Shown: one piece after another, positions 31,606-45,916 of the stretch
How the letters are laid out: each line of letters begins with the position of its first letter
Numbering within the stretch: position 1 is the first letter of the stretch
Source of the DNA: Bacillota bacterium
GTDB taxonomy: Bacteria; Bacillota; Sulfobacillia; JACIYH01
DNA: 45,916 nucleotides
Assembly (NCBI GenBank): GCA_014360055.1
Contig: JACIYH010000018.1
Coordinates: 1 to 45,916 of the forward strand
Reading direction: 5' to 3'
The notes under the pieces: generated by a model
The model's input: only the letters and a program-made list of their open reading frames with translations
Told to the model about the DNA's origin: nothing
The model's database searches: none
Position numbers and translations under genes: made by a program

Positions 31606-31760
31606 CACGCCTCCGTGCACGCACCTGACCGCACCGACTTCTCTCCCTGGAAGCGCCCCACCGCACCGAGTTCTGACACCCCTCCCTGGAAGCGCCCCAC
31701 TGCACCGAGTTCTGACACCCCTCCCTGGAAGCGCCCGACCGCACCGACTCTTGCCCCCCC
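31575..31760. repeat. Tandem repeats starting inside the 3' end of the phosphatase gene
   Basis: Units beginning CTCCCTGG or CTCCGTGC start at 31575 (inside the gene), 31611, 31643, 31682 and 31721. The last three are exactly 39 bases apart and highly similar. Each carries a version of GACCGCACCGACTTCT, the final codons of the gene, so the array looks like repeated copying of the gene end. Confidence 0.8.
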
Positions 31761-31785
31761 TCATAAGCTGGACGGGGGGGTATCG

Positions 31786-33402
31786 TTGTCCCTGTATGCG
31801 CGAACCAGCAACAGCCGGGGGGCGGACTCCGCCCACCCGGCTGATCGCTTCCTGGGCCTGGGGCAGGTGGTCCTCCTGGTGATGGGAGGGACCATAGGCG
31901 CCGACGTGTACGTGGCGTCGGCCCTGGGGGCTCACCTGGGCTCGTCTGGCCTGTTCGTCTGGGCGGCGGGGGCCGTGATGGCCATGGCGGTGATCATGGC
32001 CTTCGCCGTCTGCGCCCTGGTGGTCCCGGATACGGGGGGACCGTACCTGTACGCCCGCCGGGCCTTCGGGCCCCTGGCCGGTTTCCTGGCGGGGTGGGCC
32101 GTGCTGGCGGCTCAGTGGGCGGCCCTGGTAGCCCTCCCGGTGGCTTTTTCGGGGTACCTGCAGACCATCGTGGGCCAACATGCCTGGCTACCCTGGTACG
32201 GGGCAGCCACCAGGGTCATGTTCCTGGCGGCCGTGGCACTGGCGGTCTGCCACGGACCGCGGCTCACCGCGCTCATCAACGACATCCTCACCGTGGCCCG
32301 GCTGGTGCCCCTGCTGCTGGTACTTGTAGCAGGCCTCACCTGGGCCGCCCTGCACCCGACCCAGGCCCTCGACCACCTCTCCCCCCTGCGGCCTCCCCCC
32401 CTGCGGGCGGGATGTGCCATGCTGGTCCCGGTGTTCTGGGCGTACGCCGGCTTCGAGGTGGGCAGCATCCCCGCCGGCCAGGTAAAAGAGCCACGCCGCA
32501 CCATCCCCCTGGGCCTCATTCTGGGCATGGCCGCCGCCTCGGCCATCTACCTGGTCGTCAACTTCACCACCGCACTGGTGGTGCCCCCATCGGAACTGGT
32601 GGTCAGCCCCGCCCCCCTCATGTCATGCGCCCGCGGGGTGGCCGCCGGTCTTCTCCCCTTCTGGCCACAGGCCCCCGGCGCAGCGGAACTGCTTCTCGGC
32701 ATCGGGGTGCTGGTGTCCATCCTGGGCACGGCCACCGCGGTCGCCTTCGCCGTCACCTATCTGGTGGCTGCCATGGCCTCGGCCCGACTGTTGCCCCCCG
32801 CTCTCGGGCGCGTCCATCCCCGCCTGGGCACCCCCGTAACCGCCCTGCTCGTCCTCACCGTCCCCGCCGCCCTGGCCAGCATGGCCAGCGGCCTGCTGTC
32901 CATCGTGAGCACGGCCGTAGTGTGCTCCGCCTTCGCTTACCTGGCCACCGCCCTGGCGGCCTGGCGATTGAATCCCACCCTCGCCGGTCGGCTCCTGGCT
33001 GCACTGGCCACAGCCGCGTGCCTGATCCTGCTTTCCCTGACCGAACTGGGGGTCCTCGCCGCTGGTGCGGGGTTGCTGGCCCTGGGCGGGCTCCTCTACG
33101 CCCTGCGTCGCCACCTCCCCGCTCCCGCTCCCGGGGTATGGGTGGAAACCTTCACCCCCCTGGTGGCCCTCGCCCCCGAGATGGGGGCAGCCCGCACCCC
33201 CGCCATGGGGGTACTCCGCGCCCCCGCCATAGGGACAGCCCACGCCCCCGCCACCCCGGGCTTCGTGACCCCAGGTCTCATAGCTCCCCCATCCTGGCAG
33301 ACCAGATTCTGGCAGACGAGGTTCGTCCCCGCCGCAGCATCCTTCTTCTCGCGGCTCCGTCCCCTCCCTCGCCCCCGTCGGCGCCTCCGTATCCCGGGGT
33401 AG
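31786..33402 (+). CDS. APC-family amino-acid permease
   Basis: A 538-residue permease of the amino acid-polyamine-organocation superfamily with about twelve helices. GQVVLLVMGGTIGADVYVAS is the unwound first helix; DTGGPYLYARRAFGPLAGFL, PVFWAYAGFEVGSIPAGQVK and ARLLPPALGRVHPRLGTPVT are family signatures. TTG 31786, six bases after GACGGGGGGG, is the start; the open frame upstream is the 39-bp repeat array. After the last helix (about residue 450) comes a low-complexity tail with repeated TPAMGVLRAPAIGTAHAPAT, encoded by degenerate DNA repeats that lead into the 32-bp array. Substrate unknown. Confidence 0.85.
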   Translation: MSLYARTSNSRGADSAHPADRFLGLGQVVLLVMGGTIGADVYVASALGAHLGSSGLFVWAAGAVMAMAVIMAFAVCALVVPDTGGPYLYARRAFGPLAGFLAGWAVLAAQWAALVALPVAFSGYLQTIVGQHAWLPWYGAATRVMFLAAVALAVCHGPRLTALINDILTVARLVPLLLVLVAGLTWAALHPTQALDHLSPLRPPPLRAGCAMLVPVFWAYAGFEVGSIPAGQVKEPRRTIPLGLILGMAAASAIYLVVNFTTALVVPPSELVVSPAPLMSCARGVAAGLLPFWPQAPGAAELLLGIGVLVSILGTATAVAFAVTYLVAAMASARLLPPALGRVHPRLGTPVTALLVLTVPAALASMASGLLSIVSTAVVCSAFAYLATALAAWRLNPTLAGRLLAALATAACLILLSLTELGVLAAGAGLLALGGLLYALRRHLPAPAPGVWVETFTPLVALAPEMGAARTPAMGVLRAPAIGTAHAPATPGFVTPGLIAPPSWQTRFWQTRFVPAAASFFSRLRPLPRPRRRLRIPG

Positions 33403-33422
33403 GCACCACAATCCAGGCGAAC

Positions 33423-33723
33423 ATCCGGGCGTGGGCGCCACGATCCGCGGGGAGATCCGGGCGCAGGCACCCCGGTCCGGGGGGCAATCGGGGCGTGGGC
33501 GCCACGATCCGTGGGGAGATCCGGGCGCAGGCGCCCCGGTCCGGGGGGCAATCGGGGCGTGGGCGCCACGATCGGGGGAAAGACCGGGGCGTGGGCGCCA
33601 CGATCTGGGGGGCAATCGGGGCGTGGGCGCCACGATCCGCGGGGCAATTGTGGCGTGGGCGCCACGATCGGGGGAGAGACCAGGGCGTGGGCGCGCCCCA
33701 ATCCGGCGGACATCCCCGCGTGG
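33423..33723. repeat. Nine exactly phased 32-bp tandem repeats
   Basis: Nine units start at 33423, 33455, 33487, 33519, 33551, 33583, 33615, 33647 and 33679, each exactly 32 bases, with a partial tenth from 33711. Six carry the inverted repeat CGTGG-GCG-CCACG; two (33455 and 33519) are a second type with GCAGGC in its place. There are no spacers, so this is not a CRISPR array. All frames are open here only because of the base composition. Confidence 0.9.
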
Positions 33724-33783
33724 TGAGGCGGGTGCGGGCGAGGCGTGCAGTGGCAGGGGATTCCTTCCGCAGGTGTAGGGCGA

Positions 33784-39005: not shown

Positions 39006-39881
39006 CTAGCGTAGGGACCTGCTCTGGTCCCGCACCGCCTGTAGATCTATGACTTCCGCCAACTCATACTCAGGGGGAGCCTGGCTGACCCGGCGTCTCC
39101 GGATCACTGTGGGAAAGTATCCCATGCGTCCGTGAAGCTCCGCGAGGACCACGGCCGTAATCTCAGCCAGGCTCGGCAGGACTATCACCAACGGCAAAGT
39201 CTGCCACTGACGCGGCGTCAATCCCACGCTGTCGACAAGCTCCTGAGCTTGCGGGACGAACGGTCTATCGTCCTGGAAGTGCACGCGCACGTCTCTGACC
39301 TCTTCCACCAGGCAGTTGAGCTCCAGTCTAAGGGACTCGCGTTGTCCGTCTGTCAAGGGGTGCGAAAAGTTCAGCACTATGACCCGGCGCTGCGCCCGAA
39401 CCATCTCCTCTATCTCGTGTCTGTTGGCGCGCCGGCAACAGGCACCGCGCCTGACCCACACGTCATGCTCCTCGACCGACCCGCTCGTGCGCTTGATGAC
39501 GTGTGGCCGCGCAAAGGATTTGGCCACTACCACCACTCCAAGGGGCAGCCCGGTGGGTGGGTGGATGACCTTCTGAAAGCTCACCCTTGGCGGGGGATCG
39601 CAGAAGGTGTTGAGGCACTCGCCGATCTGACGGCGGAACTCATCGGGGTCGTCGGGCCAGAAGCCAACCACCGGCTGCGTTGACGCACTCCGCTTTCTGG
39701 CGTCAAGCACACCGATTACAAGGTAGCCGTCTCCACCAGGGGTGTTGGCGATCGCCGCAATGTCGCGGGCGAATTCGGCCCGTTCAGGGCGGGCCTCCAG
39801 GGAAACGGCCTGCTTCAGTTCGACTTTGTCGTTTTCCTCCCCCGACTCCACGTAAGGCTCCAAGACCCGCCACAAATCCAT
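39006..39881 (-). CDS. AlbA_2 (Schlafen-type) domain fused to a Csx15-like domain
   Basis: A 291-residue two-domain protein. Residues ~15-160 match the AlbA_2/divergent AAA-4 nucleic-acid binding domain: DKVELKQAV, FARDIAAIANTPGGDGYLVI and HDVWVRRGACCRRANRHEIE. Residues ~167-285 resemble CRISPR-associated Csx15: VIVLNFSHPLTDGQ, RPFVPQAQELVDSVGLTPRQ, QTLPLVIVLPSLAEITAVVL and ELHGRMGYFPTVIRRR. Csx15 has been discussed as a cyclic-oligoadenylate binding or cleaving factor of type III CRISPR; I recall this and could not check it. ATG 39881 has GAGAGGGG upstream; a longer frame reaches 39926. It follows the CARF gene by 144 bp. Confidence 0.7.
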   Translation of the reverse strand: MDLWRVLEPYVESGEENDKVELKQAVSLEARPERAEFARDIAAIANTPGGDGYLVIGVLDARKRSASTQPVVGFWPDDPDEFRRQIGECLNTFCDPPPRVSFQKVIHPPTGLPLGVVVVAKSFARPHVIKRTSGSVEEHDVWVRRGACCRRANRHEIEEMVRAQRRVIVLNFSHPLTDGQRESLRLELNCLVEEVRDVRVHFQDDRPFVPQAQELVDSVGLTPRQWQTLPLVIVLPSLAEITAVVLAELHGRMGYFPTVIRRRRVSQAPPEYELAEVIDLQAVRDQSRSLR

Positions 39882-40025
39882 TGGCTCACCCCTCTCAGGT
39901 AGTCGCCCGTCCTGGGTCACCGTCAACTCGATTCACGCTGCCGCGGGGATCAGCCGGCCAGAGGTTCGAATTCACGGGTTCTCGCAGGCCCAGCCGGAAA
40001 AAAGCCACTTCTTCGTCGGGTTCGC

Positions 40026-41036
40026 TCACAAGGGATTCTGCTCAAGCCACAGATCGATGTCGGCCGCTGCCCAGCGGATCTGGTGCGGGGCGGCCGCCGC
40101 GATCTCCACCCGGAAGTCCGCCCACATGTCCGCGACGGGAACACGCAAGCGGACAAACTCACGACCGGTGACGGGGTCGGGCATGACCCTGCATCCGGCC
40201 CTGCCCGTGCGTTCGAAGCCGGCATCGGTGATGGCACCGACGTAGTCCTTCTCGGTCTGCAGGCGATTGAGCCAGGCCTCGAGGCGGGCACGCTGCCCCC
40301 GCCAGTCGTGGTCCTTAAGGCGCACTCTCGGCCTGGGGCCCGGGTAGGCCGGCGGCCGCAGGCTGGCGACACCCGGGAGATCCGTCTTGAGGCGTTCGTG
40401 GAATATCTGCCCCACCGGCGTCAGTTCCAGGTAGTAGGGCCCATCGATAGAGACGCGCTGTATGAGCGGCTCAAGGGCTTCCTCCCATGCCGGCCTGTAC
40501 TCCTCGTATGCCACCAGGTCGCCCCGGTCAAGGGCGAAGAAGAGGTCGGAATGCCGGAGCCACAGCTGAAAGTCAAACGAAACGGGCATGGGCGGGAAGT
40601 CGATGATGTCGTTGAAGCGCTCGTGCTTGTAGTAGACCGTGGTGCCCATGGCCTGCCCCAACAACACGGCGATGGCCACCTGCGCCTTGTACCCACCTGT
40701 GGCGTTGATGATCGTAAGTTGAGGACCGCGCTGCCGCACTATGGCGGCCATCTCGCGCGCCAGTCGGCGGAGCCCCTCGGAGCGAAACTGCCCGGGCTTG
40801 TCATCGCGCAGCCCCTTTATAAGCCTCGTTTCGGCATACCACCTCTTCGCCTCGTAGTACCTCTTCAGGACCTCAGCAGTCCGCCGGCCCTGGTCGGTCT
40901 CCGAGTGCAGGAAGTAAACGGAGCGCCCGGCCGGAGCCATGCGGCGCTCAATCAGGAGTATGGAATTGATCTCGGCCCCGCACAGCCTGTCGTCGGGATC
41001 CCTGCCCAACAACGACCTCAGCACTTCGTCCTGCAA
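40026..41036 (-). CDS. CARF-domain CRISPR-associated protein (APE2256-like), N terminus lost
   Basis: A 336-residue frame of the APE2256-type CARF group. The nucleotide-binding loop IINATGGYKAQVAIAVLLGQ is at ~109-128, followed by TTVYYKHERFNDIIDFPPMP. Segment CGAEINSILLIERRMAPAGR and FLHSETDQGRRTAEVLKRYY fit the family, but the opening STVGTSLLxN strand is missing. Reading back from TTG 41036 gives QLLGREEADLKRSG and then a stop created by the end of a CRISPR repeat. The C-terminal ~90 residues are unrecognised; no HEPN RxxxxH motif was seen. Confidence 0.75.
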   Translation of the reverse strand: MQDEVLRSLLGRDPDDRLCGAEINSILLIERRMAPAGRSVYFLHSETDQGRRTAEVLKRYYEAKRWYAETRLIKGLRDDKPGQFRSEGLRRLAREMAAIVRQRGPQLTIINATGGYKAQVAIAVLLGQAMGTTVYYKHERFNDIIDFPPMPVSFDFQLWLRHSDLFFALDRGDLVAYEEYRPAWEEALEPLIQRVSIDGPYYLELTPVGQIFHERLKTDLPGVASLRPPAYPGPRPRVRLKDHDWRGQRARLEAWLNRLQTEKDYVGAITDAGFERTGRAGCRVMPDPVTGREFVRLRVPVADMWADFRVEIAAAAPHQIRWAAADIDLWLEQNPL

Positions 41037-41079: not shown

Positions 41080-41256
41080 TTTCAGTCCCGTCTACGTCCG
41101 GGTTGGCGTTGGTGGGGGCCGAGGAGTACCCCGAGAAGCCGCGCACGAAGGCTTTCAGTCCCGTCTACGTCCGGGTTGGCGTTGGTGGTAAGGTTCGTCG
41201 TCGGCACCGTAACGCGCATCGCTCCTTTCAGTCCCGTCTACGTCCGGGTTGGCGTT
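41080..41256 (-). CRISPR. CRISPR remnant: two full repeats, one truncated repeat, two spacers
   Basis: TTTCAGTCCCGTCTACGTCC followed by GGGTTGGCGTTGGTGG is the 36-base repeat at 41080-41115 and 41153-41188; a third copy at 41226 keeps 31 bases and then joins the transposase remnant. The two spacers (41116-41152 and 41189-41225) are unrelated to each other and both 37 bases. On the minus strand the repeat ends GACTGAAA, like type III/I 5' handles, so the array is probably read on the minus strand. No leader, cas1, cas2 or effector genes are in the window. Confidence 0.9.
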
Positions 41257-41812
41257 CAAACTCGTCATTGGTGACGGTTCCCTGGGGCTCTGGGCTGCTG
41301 TGAGTGAGGTATTCCCGGAGGCCAAGCAGCAGCACTGCTGGTGCCACAAGATGACCAACGTGCTGGACAAGCTGCCCAGGCCGGTGCAACCGGATGCCAA
41401 GGTCTTGCTGCGCGACATCTACAACGCCCCCACGCGGGAAGAGGCGGAGGCCCGGATTGAGGCGTTCAAAAAGGAGTTCTGTGGCCGTTACCCGGCCGCG
41501 GTGGCCTCCCTGGAGCGGGACAAGGACGCGCTACTGGTGTTCTACGACTTCCCCCAAGCCCACTGGAAGAGCATCAAGACCACAAACCCGATAGAATCCA
41601 TCTTCGACTCGGTGCGCCTGCGCACGCGGGCAACGAGGCGGATGAGGTCAGCCCGTACGGGTCTGTATCTAGTCTTCCAAATAGTAAAGCGCTCCCAAAG
41701 CAGGTGGCACAAGCTCGATGGTGCTGATCTCCTAACAAAAGTTGCCAATGGGGTGAAGTTCGTGAATGGGAAGGAGGTGGTTCCCTCGAAGGAACGGGCG
41801 GCTGCCGACTAA
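41249..41812 (+). pseudogene. Truncated IS256-family transposase
   Basis: C-terminal ~187 residues of the transposase; there is no proper start because the 5' half was deleted. The frame runs intact to TAA at 41810-41812, ending KEVVPSKERAAAD, so the deletion is probably recent. Confidence 0.85.
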
Positions 41813-41845
41813 GCGATTTTCCACACCTCTTGACATGAGCTCCAT
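41249..41845 (+). mobile_element. IS256-family element, 3' half only
   Basis: Carries the last ~187 residues of an IS256 (mutator-type) transposase: AFKLVIGDGSLGLWAAVSEV, QHCWCHKMTNVLDKLP and WKSIKTTNPIESIFDSVRLR, which includes the catalytic Glu region. The N-terminal half and left end are missing, joined directly to CRISPR repeat 3 with shared GCGTT. The right end is intact: 41816-41845 reads GATTTTCCACACCTCTTGAC and on to GAGCTCC, the usual terminal repeat form. The element therefore arrived whole and was later truncated by a deletion. Confidence 0.85.
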
Positions 41846-42009
41846 CGCGGACGAGCACCGCGGTGAACGCATAAAACACGCATAGTAGCAACGATTTACG
41901 GCGAAGGCCAGGTCTCCGTCCTGGAGTCCCGGCCTGCAGACGCCACCGCCCGCTCTGCCTTCTGGAGCCAGTAGCCAATCAGGGCCTCCCGGTCGCGTGG
42001 GTCACTCAC
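41846..42009 (-). pseudogene. HEPN toxin-like gene, frameshifted and cut by the IS right end
   Basis: The GTG at 42009 overlaps the end of the MNT gene. It encodes SDPRDREALIGYWLQKAERA, the usual N terminus of HEPN proteins paired with MNT antitoxins. The reading frame then stops at TAA 41898-41896, but other frames continue the family sequence: DLAFAVNRCYYACF and then YAFTAVLVRDGAHVK. The coding sequence ends at the IS256 terminal repeat. It is thus a multiply frameshifted, truncated HEPN domain. Confidence 0.7.
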
Positions 42010-42353
42010 ACCGCCACGCCCTCCCGCTCCACGTCCGGGCGAATGGGGACAAAAAGAGGACCCTTCTGCCACTGGTCTTCACCAACGCAGACGACACTGA
42101 GACTCGCCCCATACCGAAAATTCATGTCGAAGACGAGATCATAGATTTCGTGCTTGACGGACGTGGGGAGGGTACGGTCCGTGAGCAACAGCAAGTCCAC
42201 ATCGGACTCCGGGCCAGCGTTACCCCTTGCCGCAGACCCGAACAGGATCAGCTTCTTCACCTGCAGAAAGCGGCTTCTCAACTCGCGCTTCAGCTCCAGG
42301 ATGGCCTGGCGTTCCGCCGCACTCAATCTAACACTCTCGAGCGTCCGGCTCAT
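42006..42353 (-). CDS. MNT-type nucleotidyltransferase (antitoxin of a MNT/HEPN pair)
   Basis: A 115-residue minimal nucleotidyltransferase. KKLILFGSAARGNAGPESDV shows the GSxxRG loop and the DxD metal pair (residues 51 and 53), followed by DLLLLTDRTL. In MNT/HEPN toxin-antitoxin systems this enzyme modifies and neutralises the HEPN ribonuclease encoded next to it. Here the HEPN partner downstream is broken. ATG 42353 has GGGAGGTCGGGAA upstream; the longer frame to 42392 is not needed. It overlaps the preceding antitoxin-like gene by 26 bases. Confidence 0.85.
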   Translation of the reverse strand: MSRTLESVRLSAAERQAILELKRELRSRFLQVKKLILFGSAARGNAGPESDVDLLLLTDRTLPTSVKHEIYDLVFDMNFRYGASLSVVCVGEDQWQKGPLFVPIRPDVEREGVAV

Positions 42354-42693
42354 TTCCCGACCTCCCGCCACGCTGGCCACACGAGGCGCCATCTTCCGCG
42401 ACCGCGGCCTGGCCGCCCGCCGCCCTATGCAACTCGAGCAGTCTCTCCCGCCGCCCCTCGAGGCCTTCCCACTCGATGAGGTCCTCCCACGCCGGATGTT
42501 CCCCCACCGAACGTTGGCCGATTAACTATTCCAGGCCCCCAGCCTGCTTCACCCCGTACCGGGCGACCTGGGCCATGATTCGCTCATCCACGCTTCGGAG
42601 TTCCGCCTCCAGGAACGTCTTGAGGGCCTTCCGCCCAAGCTCGGGCCTCGGAGTCCTCAGCTGTTCGGCAATGGTGGCAAACGAAACGCCCAC
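42328..42693 (-). pseudogene. Small antitoxin-like gene with an in-frame amber codon
   Basis: GTG 42693 behind GGAGGGTAGCAAG opens a frame with FATIAEQLRTPRPELGRKAL and FLEAELRSVDERIMAQVARY, then VKQAGGLE and a TAG at 42528-42526. The same frame continues LIGQRSVGEHPAWEDLIEWE and GLEGRRERLLELHR. This resembles small helical proteins with an FLExELRxxxxEIxxxxxRYGV pattern and a downstream WEDLxxxxxLExRRxxL pattern, often encoded beside toxin genes. The intact frame on both sides suggests a single nonsense mutation. Confidence 0.6.
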
Positions 42694-43270: not shown

Positions 43271-43408
43271 GAGCTGTAGCACGTCTCGCCTGTCCGTGCT
43301 TCCTGCACAGGATAACCCCGCGCTCAGCACGATCCAAACCGGCGAAGTCCAGGATCTCCCACGCCCCCTCCACCAGGGCAGCAATCTCAAACGTGCTCGC
43401 CCCGGGCG

Positions 43409-45817
43409 TCAGCGCACGCTGCTGGCCGGCCTGAGTATGGTCTTGTTCCCGGCAAAGCGGGTCCGGATTTCCTTCTCGTCGAACCACATCGTCTTGTAGC
43501 GTCCGGTGAGCCACAGCTGCATCTGGTCCTGATAGTGGGGACTGGCGGGCTGTCCCGAGATGCCTATGGCCAGCACATCGCCCCCGTGGTCGAGGTCAGC
43601 CAGGTCCACGGCATAGCGCCAGGGAGCGGCCACTTTCACGGCAAAGGGATCGGTCAGGCTGTAGGAGGCAGCCCCAGCCGTGATCTTGCTGCCTCCGTAC
43701 GGGAACGGCCCGCGATTGAAGAGCCGGTCAAGCGGCTTGACCCTGCCCAGGGGATGGGCGAAGGTGATGGTGTGGAGGCGCCCCCACTCCCACTTCTCCG
43801 GGTCCTTCCCGAGCTTGCCGGCCAGTTCGGCCACCGTATCGCGAAAGGCCAGGCGGATGATCCCGTCCCTGGTCTCCTTCTCGGGGGTGGTCACGTCGTC
43901 AAACCACGGCGAATCCGTCCGCAGCATGGTATCGAAGACATTCATGGCAGAGCCATGTTCCAGGAAGCGGGGATAGAGTTCTCCCAGCTCGTCCTGGAAG
44001 GTGCGCCAGAGCATTTTCAGATAGAGGGTGTGAAAGATGGCCGGTCCGGCTGCGTCGGGTAGATCGCGAGGATCCGCGGACCAGCGGGCCAGCACCTGCC
44101 GGGCCCGGTTTTCCTCGGGGGACCATTGCCCCCCTTCCAGAGCCCGGCCAATAATTGGATAAAGGATGGCCGCCTGGAGGTTCTTCCAGTCGGTCTGAAT
44201 CTTCTCCATATCGGCCAGAGTCAGCCCCTTCTTGCCCTCAAGTTCCTGCCGGATGCTCATGGCGCGATAGGGAAGGGCCCACTGATGGCTGAGGAAATAC
44301 GGGTAGTCGTCGCCAACCACTCTGTTGTTCGCCGTGACGATGAATCCCTCCGGCGGATTCATCACCTGGGGCACCTCGTCCCACGGTATCCAGCCCTTCC
44401 ACTCGTATTCGTCCGTCCATCCGGGCACCGGTAACAGCCCGTCGCCCTTGTTGCGCACGGGAAAGAGGCCGTTGGCCCGGTAGGCTATGGTGCCGTCGAT
44501 ATCGGCAAAGACGAAGTTCTGGGCGGGAGCCATGAAGTGTTCCAGAGCCTTTTTGAAGTCATCCCAGTTCCGGGCACGCATGAAGCCCAGCACGGCTTCT
44601 AACTCCCGGGTACGTTCATAGGCTGTCCAGCGCAGGCTGAGCGGCTGGCTTACACCCGTGACCACGTCCGAGATGATGGGACCGTGCCGGGTGATGACCA
44701 CCTCTTTGACCACCGGTTCTTTCCGTCCTTTGACACGAATCTCTTCCCTTATGACCGTCGCATTCTCCCACCGGCCGTTGTATTCGAATTGATAGGGGTT
44801 CGCCGGATTGGGCCTTTCCACGTACAGGTCCTGCACGTCGGGACCCACGTTGGTGACCCCCCAGGCGACCCGTTCATTGTGACCCACGATGACCCCCGGC
44901 ACTCCGGGAAACATGACGCCCGTGACATTCAGGCGTCCAGGCACGACCAGGTGGTTCTGGTACCAGATGGAAGGCGCTCCCATTGCCAGGTGCATGTCGT
45001 TGGCCAGCATGGGGCGACCGGAAGCGGTCATCTGCCCCCCAACCACCCAGTTGTTACTGCCGAGGTCTTCCCCCGATATGCCCAGAACGCGGCCCAGGTC
45101 CGCCAGTTCCAAGAGTTGCGCCAGGGCCCACCAGGGGCCTGGGACCGGCGTACCGGCGCTCTGGATGATGGTCAGGTCCTCGGGGGAGGCTGCGGGAAAA
45201 AGGGTGCGTGCCCTTTCGGGCCCCAGTTTGTCTACCAGGGCCAACAGGAAGAGTTCCGTCTGCATGTTGCCACCCAGTTCCCAGGCCATGTACTTGCCAA
45301 TGGCCAGGGAATCGGTGGTCGTCCAGGGATCCGGCTGGTAACCGAGGATGGTGAACTCAATGGGCAAATTGCGCCTGTGCCCGGCGATGTAGTCGTTTAT
45401 CCCCCGCGCAAACGCCTCCAGGGCCTGCTTGGCTTCGGGAGTCAGGAATGCCTCGGACTCTCGGGCCGCCCTCACGAAGCCGATGGTGCGCAGGAACTGG
45501 TCGGCAGCCGCGAAGTCCGGGCCAAAGATCTCGGCCAGCCGGCCGCTCACGGCGCGTCTGGTCAGGTCCATCTGCCAGAGGCGGTCCTGGGCCATGACGT
45601 AACCCTGGGCGTAAAAAAGATCTTCCTCGGTTTGGGCGAATATGTGGGGGACGGCGTAGTCGTCACGGTAAATCTCCACCACTGCCCGGACACCGGCAGC
45701 CCGCTCTCCGGCCAGGGCGGGAACACCCCGCCGGTACACCCACCAGGCGCCGGTACCGGCGGCCACCAAGGCCAGAACCAGGAACAGCACCAGGGCCAGC
45801 ACTAGCTTACGCCGCAT
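43409..45817 (-). CDS. Penicillin acylase family protein (Ntn hydrolase)
   Basis: An 802-residue precursor of the penicillin/acyl-homoserine-lactone acylase family. A membrane anchor or signal (RRKLVLALVLFLVLALVAAG) starts it; the alpha chain has VEIYRDDYAVPHIFAQTEED and YVMAQDRLWQMDLTRRAVSG. The autoprocessing site is GISGEDLGSNNWVVGG with the nucleophile Ser near residue 254, and the beta chain shows MLANDMHLAMGAPSIWYQNH and GVPGVIVGHNERVAWGVTNV. ATG 45817 follows TAGGAGGGGGTAGTC. Length is normal. Likely substrate classes are beta-lactams, N-acyl amino acids or acyl-homoserine lactones; the sequence does not decide. Confidence 0.9.
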   Translation of the reverse strand: MRRKLVLALVLFLVLALVAAGTGAWWVYRRGVPALAGERAAGVRAVVEIYRDDYAVPHIFAQTEEDLFYAQGYVMAQDRLWQMDLTRRAVSGRLAEIFGPDFAAADQFLRTIGFVRAARESEAFLTPEAKQALEAFARGINDYIAGHRRNLPIEFTILGYQPDPWTTTDSLAIGKYMAWELGGNMQTELFLLALVDKLGPERARTLFPAASPEDLTIIQSAGTPVPGPWWALAQLLELADLGRVLGISGEDLGSNNWVVGGQMTASGRPMLANDMHLAMGAPSIWYQNHLVVPGRLNVTGVMFPGVPGVIVGHNERVAWGVTNVGPDVQDLYVERPNPANPYQFEYNGRWENATVIREEIRVKGRKEPVVKEVVITRHGPIISDVVTGVSQPLSLRWTAYERTRELEAVLGFMRARNWDDFKKALEHFMAPAQNFVFADIDGTIAYRANGLFPVRNKGDGLLPVPGWTDEYEWKGWIPWDEVPQVMNPPEGFIVTANNRVVGDDYPYFLSHQWALPYRAMSIRQELEGKKGLTLADMEKIQTDWKNLQAAILYPIIGRALEGGQWSPEENRARQVLARWSADPRDLPDAAGPAIFHTLYLKMLWRTFQDELGELYPRFLEHGSAMNVFDTMLRTDSPWFDDVTTPEKETRDGIIRLAFRDTVAELAGKLGKDPEKWEWGRLHTITFAHPLGRVKPLDRLFNRGPFPYGGSKITAGAASYSLTDPFAVKVAAPWRYAVDLADLDHGGDVLAIGISGQPASPHYQDQMQLWLTGRYKTMWFDEKEIRTRFAGNKTILRPASSVR

Positions 45818-45916
45818 GACTACCCCCTCCTAAGTCAGACTTCAAGCGAGGGGATTGAATTTCGGCATTGGTAATCCAGAAAGGAGCAGTGCTGGAGTGA
45901 AGGTGAAGGTGCAGCA

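Follow-up and report, generated by a model that had tools for sequence, protein, structure and literature searches.

A single reading frame in the DNA analysed here joins a Schlafen-type AlbA_2 domain to a Csx15 domain, and this fusion is genuine and intact, far beyond anything expected by chance. The frame lies in a window of 45,916 nucleotides, by which we mean the whole stretch of DNA that was analysed. By analogy with known proteins, we regard the encoded protein, with somewhat better than even confidence, as a type III CRISPR effector of the Cash type that would respond to cyclic tetra-adenylate (cA4), with stacking of its Csx15 domains activating the Schlafen nuclease. The features of the window to which we refer are the following:

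39006..39881, minus strand: AlbA_2-Csx15 fusion gene (Cash-like), 291 aa
39426..39836, minus strand: AlbA_2 (Schlafen) domain, from Pfam and alignment to rSLFN13
39009..39380, minus strand: Csx15 domain, from NCBIfam profile, genome search and alignments
40026..41036, minus strand: CARF7-DUF2103 (APE2256-type) gene, 5'-truncated
41080..41256: remnant CRISPR array of 36-nt repeats (two complete, a third broken off at 31 nt) and two 37-nt spacers
41249..41812, plus strand: IS256-family transposase gene, of which a 3' fragment is left (match to model positions 188-335)

The fusion frame and its two domains

The fusion gene starts with an ATG at 39881, preceded by GAGAGGGGTGA, a good ribosome-binding site. 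A TTG at 39926 is a possible alternative start, which would give a frame of 306 aa. The frame contains no stop, and its matches to AlbA_2 and Csx15 do not overlap (residues 31-167 and 183-306 in the 306-aa frame, about 16-152 and about 168-291 in the 291-aa frame). The sole family matched in the Pfam search was SLFN_AlbA_2 (PF04326; E = 2.2e-12, 48 bits vs a gathering score of 25.3), and the sole family matched in the NCBIfam search was Csx15 (NF040560; E = 5e-44, 149.5 bits vs a cut-off of 35, model positions 1-125 of 125). PADLOC called Csx15 in the same frame, in agreement with NCBIfam. The first-pass annotation had read both domains in one frame, and these matches, each above its curated cut-off and that of the C-terminal half highly significant, bear it out. 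The same two-domain protein is found in four other genomes and also in a PDB entry, so that the fusion is neither a frame accident nor confined to one genome.

Csx15, from which one CARF strand is absent, holds cA4 between head-to-tail dimers and forms filaments by stacking on it (PMC13148439). CliCsx15 is a slow cA4 nuclease that requires H13 and H90 for cleavage; PfCsx15 is a sponge, with R116, R120 and R123 lining the cA4 site (PMC13148439). The Csx15 half of the window protein keeps these cA4-contact and catalytic histidines and the C-terminal arginines: in alignments, H174 and H250 correspond to H13 and H90 of CliCsx15, and R284, R288 and R291 to R116, R120 and R123 of PfCsx15. The window protein shares the whole Csx15 domain and the cA4-contact residues with these ring nucleases and sponges (CliCsx15, 9TEU; PfCsx15, 9TET), which stand alone, whereas it has an additional Schlafen domain. 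Classical Csx15 is a small stand-alone protein; here an AlbA_2 domain is fused upstream, and the window protein is better described as containing a Csx15 domain than as a Csx15 in the classical sense.

In the AlbA_2 half, alignment places E16, E21, K23 and D60 at the positions of rSLFN13 E205, E210, K212 and D248. SLFN13 is an RNase acting on tRNA and rRNA that needs E205, E210 and D248 (PMC5862951). A profile of AlbA_2 halves matched the chains of SLFN14 (E = 4.4e-7), SLFN13-type 5YD0 (E = 1.3e-5) and SLFN11 (E = 3.1e-5). What these Schlafen RNases share with the window protein is a single AlbA_2 lobe with acidic active-site residues; in mammals they are two-lobed and lack Csx15, and the sequence likeness seen by profile is low (E = 4e-7 to 3e-5). 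Mammalian SLFN13 requires two lobes, and dimerisation would be needed for one AlbA_2 lobe to form a nuclease. The SLFN13-like residues would allow nuclease activity in the window protein but are no proof of it, because they are also common to unrelated, ordinary bacterial AlbA_2 proteins.

A PDB sequence search ranked CbCash (9YLU, 9YLV and 9YLX; 297 aa) ahead of the stand-alone Csx15 entries 9TEU and 9TET, with residues 18-302 of the 306-aa frame aligned to CbCash residues 4-290 (E = 1.9e-62). Domain order is identical, length is nearly equal, and identity to the window protein is 41% over 283 residues. The presence of 28 chains across the three entries suggests that CbCash is an oligomer. 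A literature search found no paper on CbCash. The AlbA_2-Csx15 architecture is already known and solved structures exist for it. The initial proposal of a new way to couple cyclic-oligoadenylate signalling to a nucleic-acid domain therefore loses its newness to CbCash, for which three PDB entries already show this architecture. The coupling itself is reasonable, as Csx15 binds cA4 (PMC13148439), and is well supported as a hypothesis. CbCash has glutamine at the positions of H174 and H250 and aspartate where the window protein has E21; its sequence was taken from HMMER alignments and could be that of an engineered construct. If the glutamines occur in nature, the Cash proteins may include both self-limiting members and members that only sense.

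An AlphaFold model of the window protein was confident only for the Csx15 half (residues about 150-291). For the AlbA_2 half pLDDT was mostly below 50, because no aligned relatives were supplied for the N-terminal half. A Foldseek search with this model (structures to 2026-04-08) returned nothing below E = 0.001. CbCash was missing from the top 50 matches; its entries may have been released after that date, or the poorly modelled N-terminal half may be the reason. The best fold match was the CalpL SAVED filament, with a weak E of 0.014, which agrees with the sequence evidence and adds little to it. In the CARF/SAVED effectors Cat1, CalpL and Cap4, the ligand drives stacking and thereby switches on the effector domain fused to the sensor, which is the mode expected for the window protein as well, although their effector domains differ from its own.

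Distribution and type III loci of the fusion

Besides the window genome, the fusion was found in G534 (Anaerolineae), in G845 and G895 (both of the window's phylum) and in G939 (of the same class as G845), in each case beside type III CRISPR genes. The four proteins are 36-44% identical to the window protein. The fusion is rare and stand-alone Csx15 is widespread, much as the first-pass annotation had assumed for Csx15: the window protein as query matched 129 of 396 Anaerolineae genomes, nearly all of them at a stand-alone protein aligned to the Csx15 half only and one of them at a fusion. Searches at the threshold used did not find the fusion in 291 Armatimonadota genomes, and it was absent from both other genomes of the window genus. 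Plasmid and phage collections gave no match to the window protein. Four matches were found in viral contigs, all to the Csx15 half only, and a search of viral contigs with fusion queries found no relative. A tree of the Csx15 halves was not resolved and neither supported nor rejected a single origin of the fusion (AU p = 0.65).

Several sets of candidates were rejected. Eighty loci kept from genome contigs have stand-alone Csx15 and no fusion, to the extent that they were checked; frames of more than 175 aa read among them were spurious upstream readings or contained no AlbA_2, and at the single locus with an AlbA_2 match (L080) AlbA_2 is a separate gene. Other matching AlbA_2 proteins have C-terminal parts that are HATPase, TPR or of unknown type, not Csx15. 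At L079 (9113-10414), a gene for a CARF-like protein similar to a CARF-nuclease precedes a Csx15 gene in the same frame, separated from it by one stop codon.

The loci of the four relatives differ in detail. In G845 and G939 the fusion gene immediately precedes the cas10-cmr genes; in G845 its other flank has a stand-alone Csx15 and a CARF protein. In G895 it follows cas10 and Csm3-type genes, in a locus that also contains a CARF-HEPN Csx1. In G534 it adjoins Cas7-type genes of the III-D kind, and a second Csx15-like piece lies at the contig end. The three readable Cas10 proteins (G845, G939 and G895) have a GGDD cyclase motif and no clear N-terminal HD motif, so that these type III systems probably rely on cyclic oligoadenylate signalling. 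The argument that the fusion acts as an effector, or in some other role tied to the signal, depends chiefly on this linkage of the relatives to type III genes with a GGDD Cas10.

A position immediately before cas10 in two genomes would also suit a regulator that binds DNA in response to cA4 and controls the CRISPR locus, the more so as AlbA_2 is frequently annotated as a DNA-binding domain. We consider this quite improbable, given that the catalytic Schlafen residues are kept and that the Pfam search of the fusion frame found no regulator-type domain.

The loci bear on a further alternative, in which the protein is a brake: the Csx15 half would remove or sponge cA4, and AlbA_2 would do no more than tether the protein, either to nucleic acid or to Cas10 and its partners. 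Stand-alone Csx15 is just such a slow ring nuclease or sponge (PMC13148439), the equivalents of both catalytic histidines, H174 and H250, are kept in the window protein and all four genome relatives, and the G895 locus has its separate CARF-HEPN protein as effector. Against this, another brake seems superfluous where a separate Csx15 (G845) or a second Csx15-like piece (G534) is already present, both histidines are missing from CbCash, and the acidic Schlafen residues are kept; we judge a pure brake unlikely. The second Csx15 or Csx15-like genes beside the fusion in two of the four other loci (L162:10024-10404 and L164:1-438) could tune the fused protein.

Surroundings of the gene in the window

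The first-pass annotation placed the fusion beside a CARF gene. The neighbour is indeed a CARF gene (CARF7-DUF2103) but not an intact one: its 5' end is missing, and with it the N-terminal strand and the TxGTS motif that are both present in its relatives L188 and L011. A CRISPR repeat occupies the expected place of the TxGTS segment. The remnant array is enclosed by the truncated CARF gene on one side and IS256 on the other, with no visible leader, and its third repeat ends after 31 nt at the 5'-truncated IS256 gene. An identical 36-nt repeat is found on contig C17 of the window genome (G000; L165:52-530), where seven copies lie adjacent to a Cas4/Csa1 gene.

Neither a Cmr2-type Cas10 nor a Cas10 palm domain nor a RAMP protein turned up when all 141 contigs of the assembly (99.76% complete) were searched; control genomes were positive in the same searches. 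The window genome thus has no evident source of cA4. Its contigs break at the CRISPR array, and the type III genes are either lost or hidden in an assembly gap; likewise, the fusion is either an orphan here or its cas genes lie in such a gap. A chimeric assembly join at the CRISPR repeat is a possible alternative.

Beyond the IS256 fragment lies a gene for an MNT-type nucleotidyltransferase (42006-42392, minus strand; region 41780-42392). Next to it comes a HEPN-like partner with a frameshift, so that WLQKAERAVASAG and DLAFAVNRCYYACF are read in different frames; further on, close to the IS256 fragment, the partner is interrupted. From 43396 to 45916, starting just before a penicillin acylase gene, the window is 94% identical in DNA to G031 of the same genus, and to the left of 43396 nothing matches within the G031 stretch compared, which places the CRISPR remnant in a variable region. 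Elsewhere in the window, eight tandem copies of a 32-bp unit (33359-33729) cover the 3' end of a transporter-like frame (31615-33402) and the sequence downstream, and keep several frames open.

These surroundings raise the possibility that the fusion is the leftover of a decayed type III locus and functionless in the window organism, which would be compatible with any mechanism for its relatives. The lack of Cas10 and RAMP in a nearly complete assembly, the truncated CARF gene, the repeat and IS256 cut into each other, the frameshifted HEPN partner and the absence of the fusion in both other genomes of the genus all favour decay. The fusion frame, however, is intact with all its key residues, the array continues on C17 beside cas4, and repeat-associated contig breaks could hide cas genes. 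We take decay in this organism as a serious possibility that falls somewhat short of an even chance.

Proposed mode of action and significance

Our preferred reading of the protein as a Cash-type effector builds on the domains, the conserved residues and the recurrent type III linkage computed in this analysis, and on published findings for cA4 binding and stacking of Csx15 and for the catalytic residues of SLFN13. The Csx15 domain would dimerise and bind cA4 made by Cas10, and by analogy with stand-alone Csx15 the dimers would stack head to tail around it. We infer that this stacking would align the N-terminal AlbA_2 domains into an active nuclease, the target of which would most likely be tRNA or rRNA, so that the infected cell would be arrested. 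As both Csx15 histidines are kept, we further infer that slow cleavage of cA4 may switch the effector off.

Such a self-limiting timer would not be general, because CbCash has glutamine at both histidine positions. For the subgroup that keeps the histidines, and unlike CbCash, we tentatively suggest a Schlafen RNase that is activated by cA4 and also degrades it, and so times itself, with or without tuning by a separate Csx15 partner; we regard this more specific scheme as possible but less likely than not. The five genome members that keep the histidines and CbCash, which is without them, provide a ready comparison for the question of self-timing. The fusion would link the Schlafens, known in mammals as antiviral tRNA nucleases, to cyclic-oligoadenylate signalling in bacteria.
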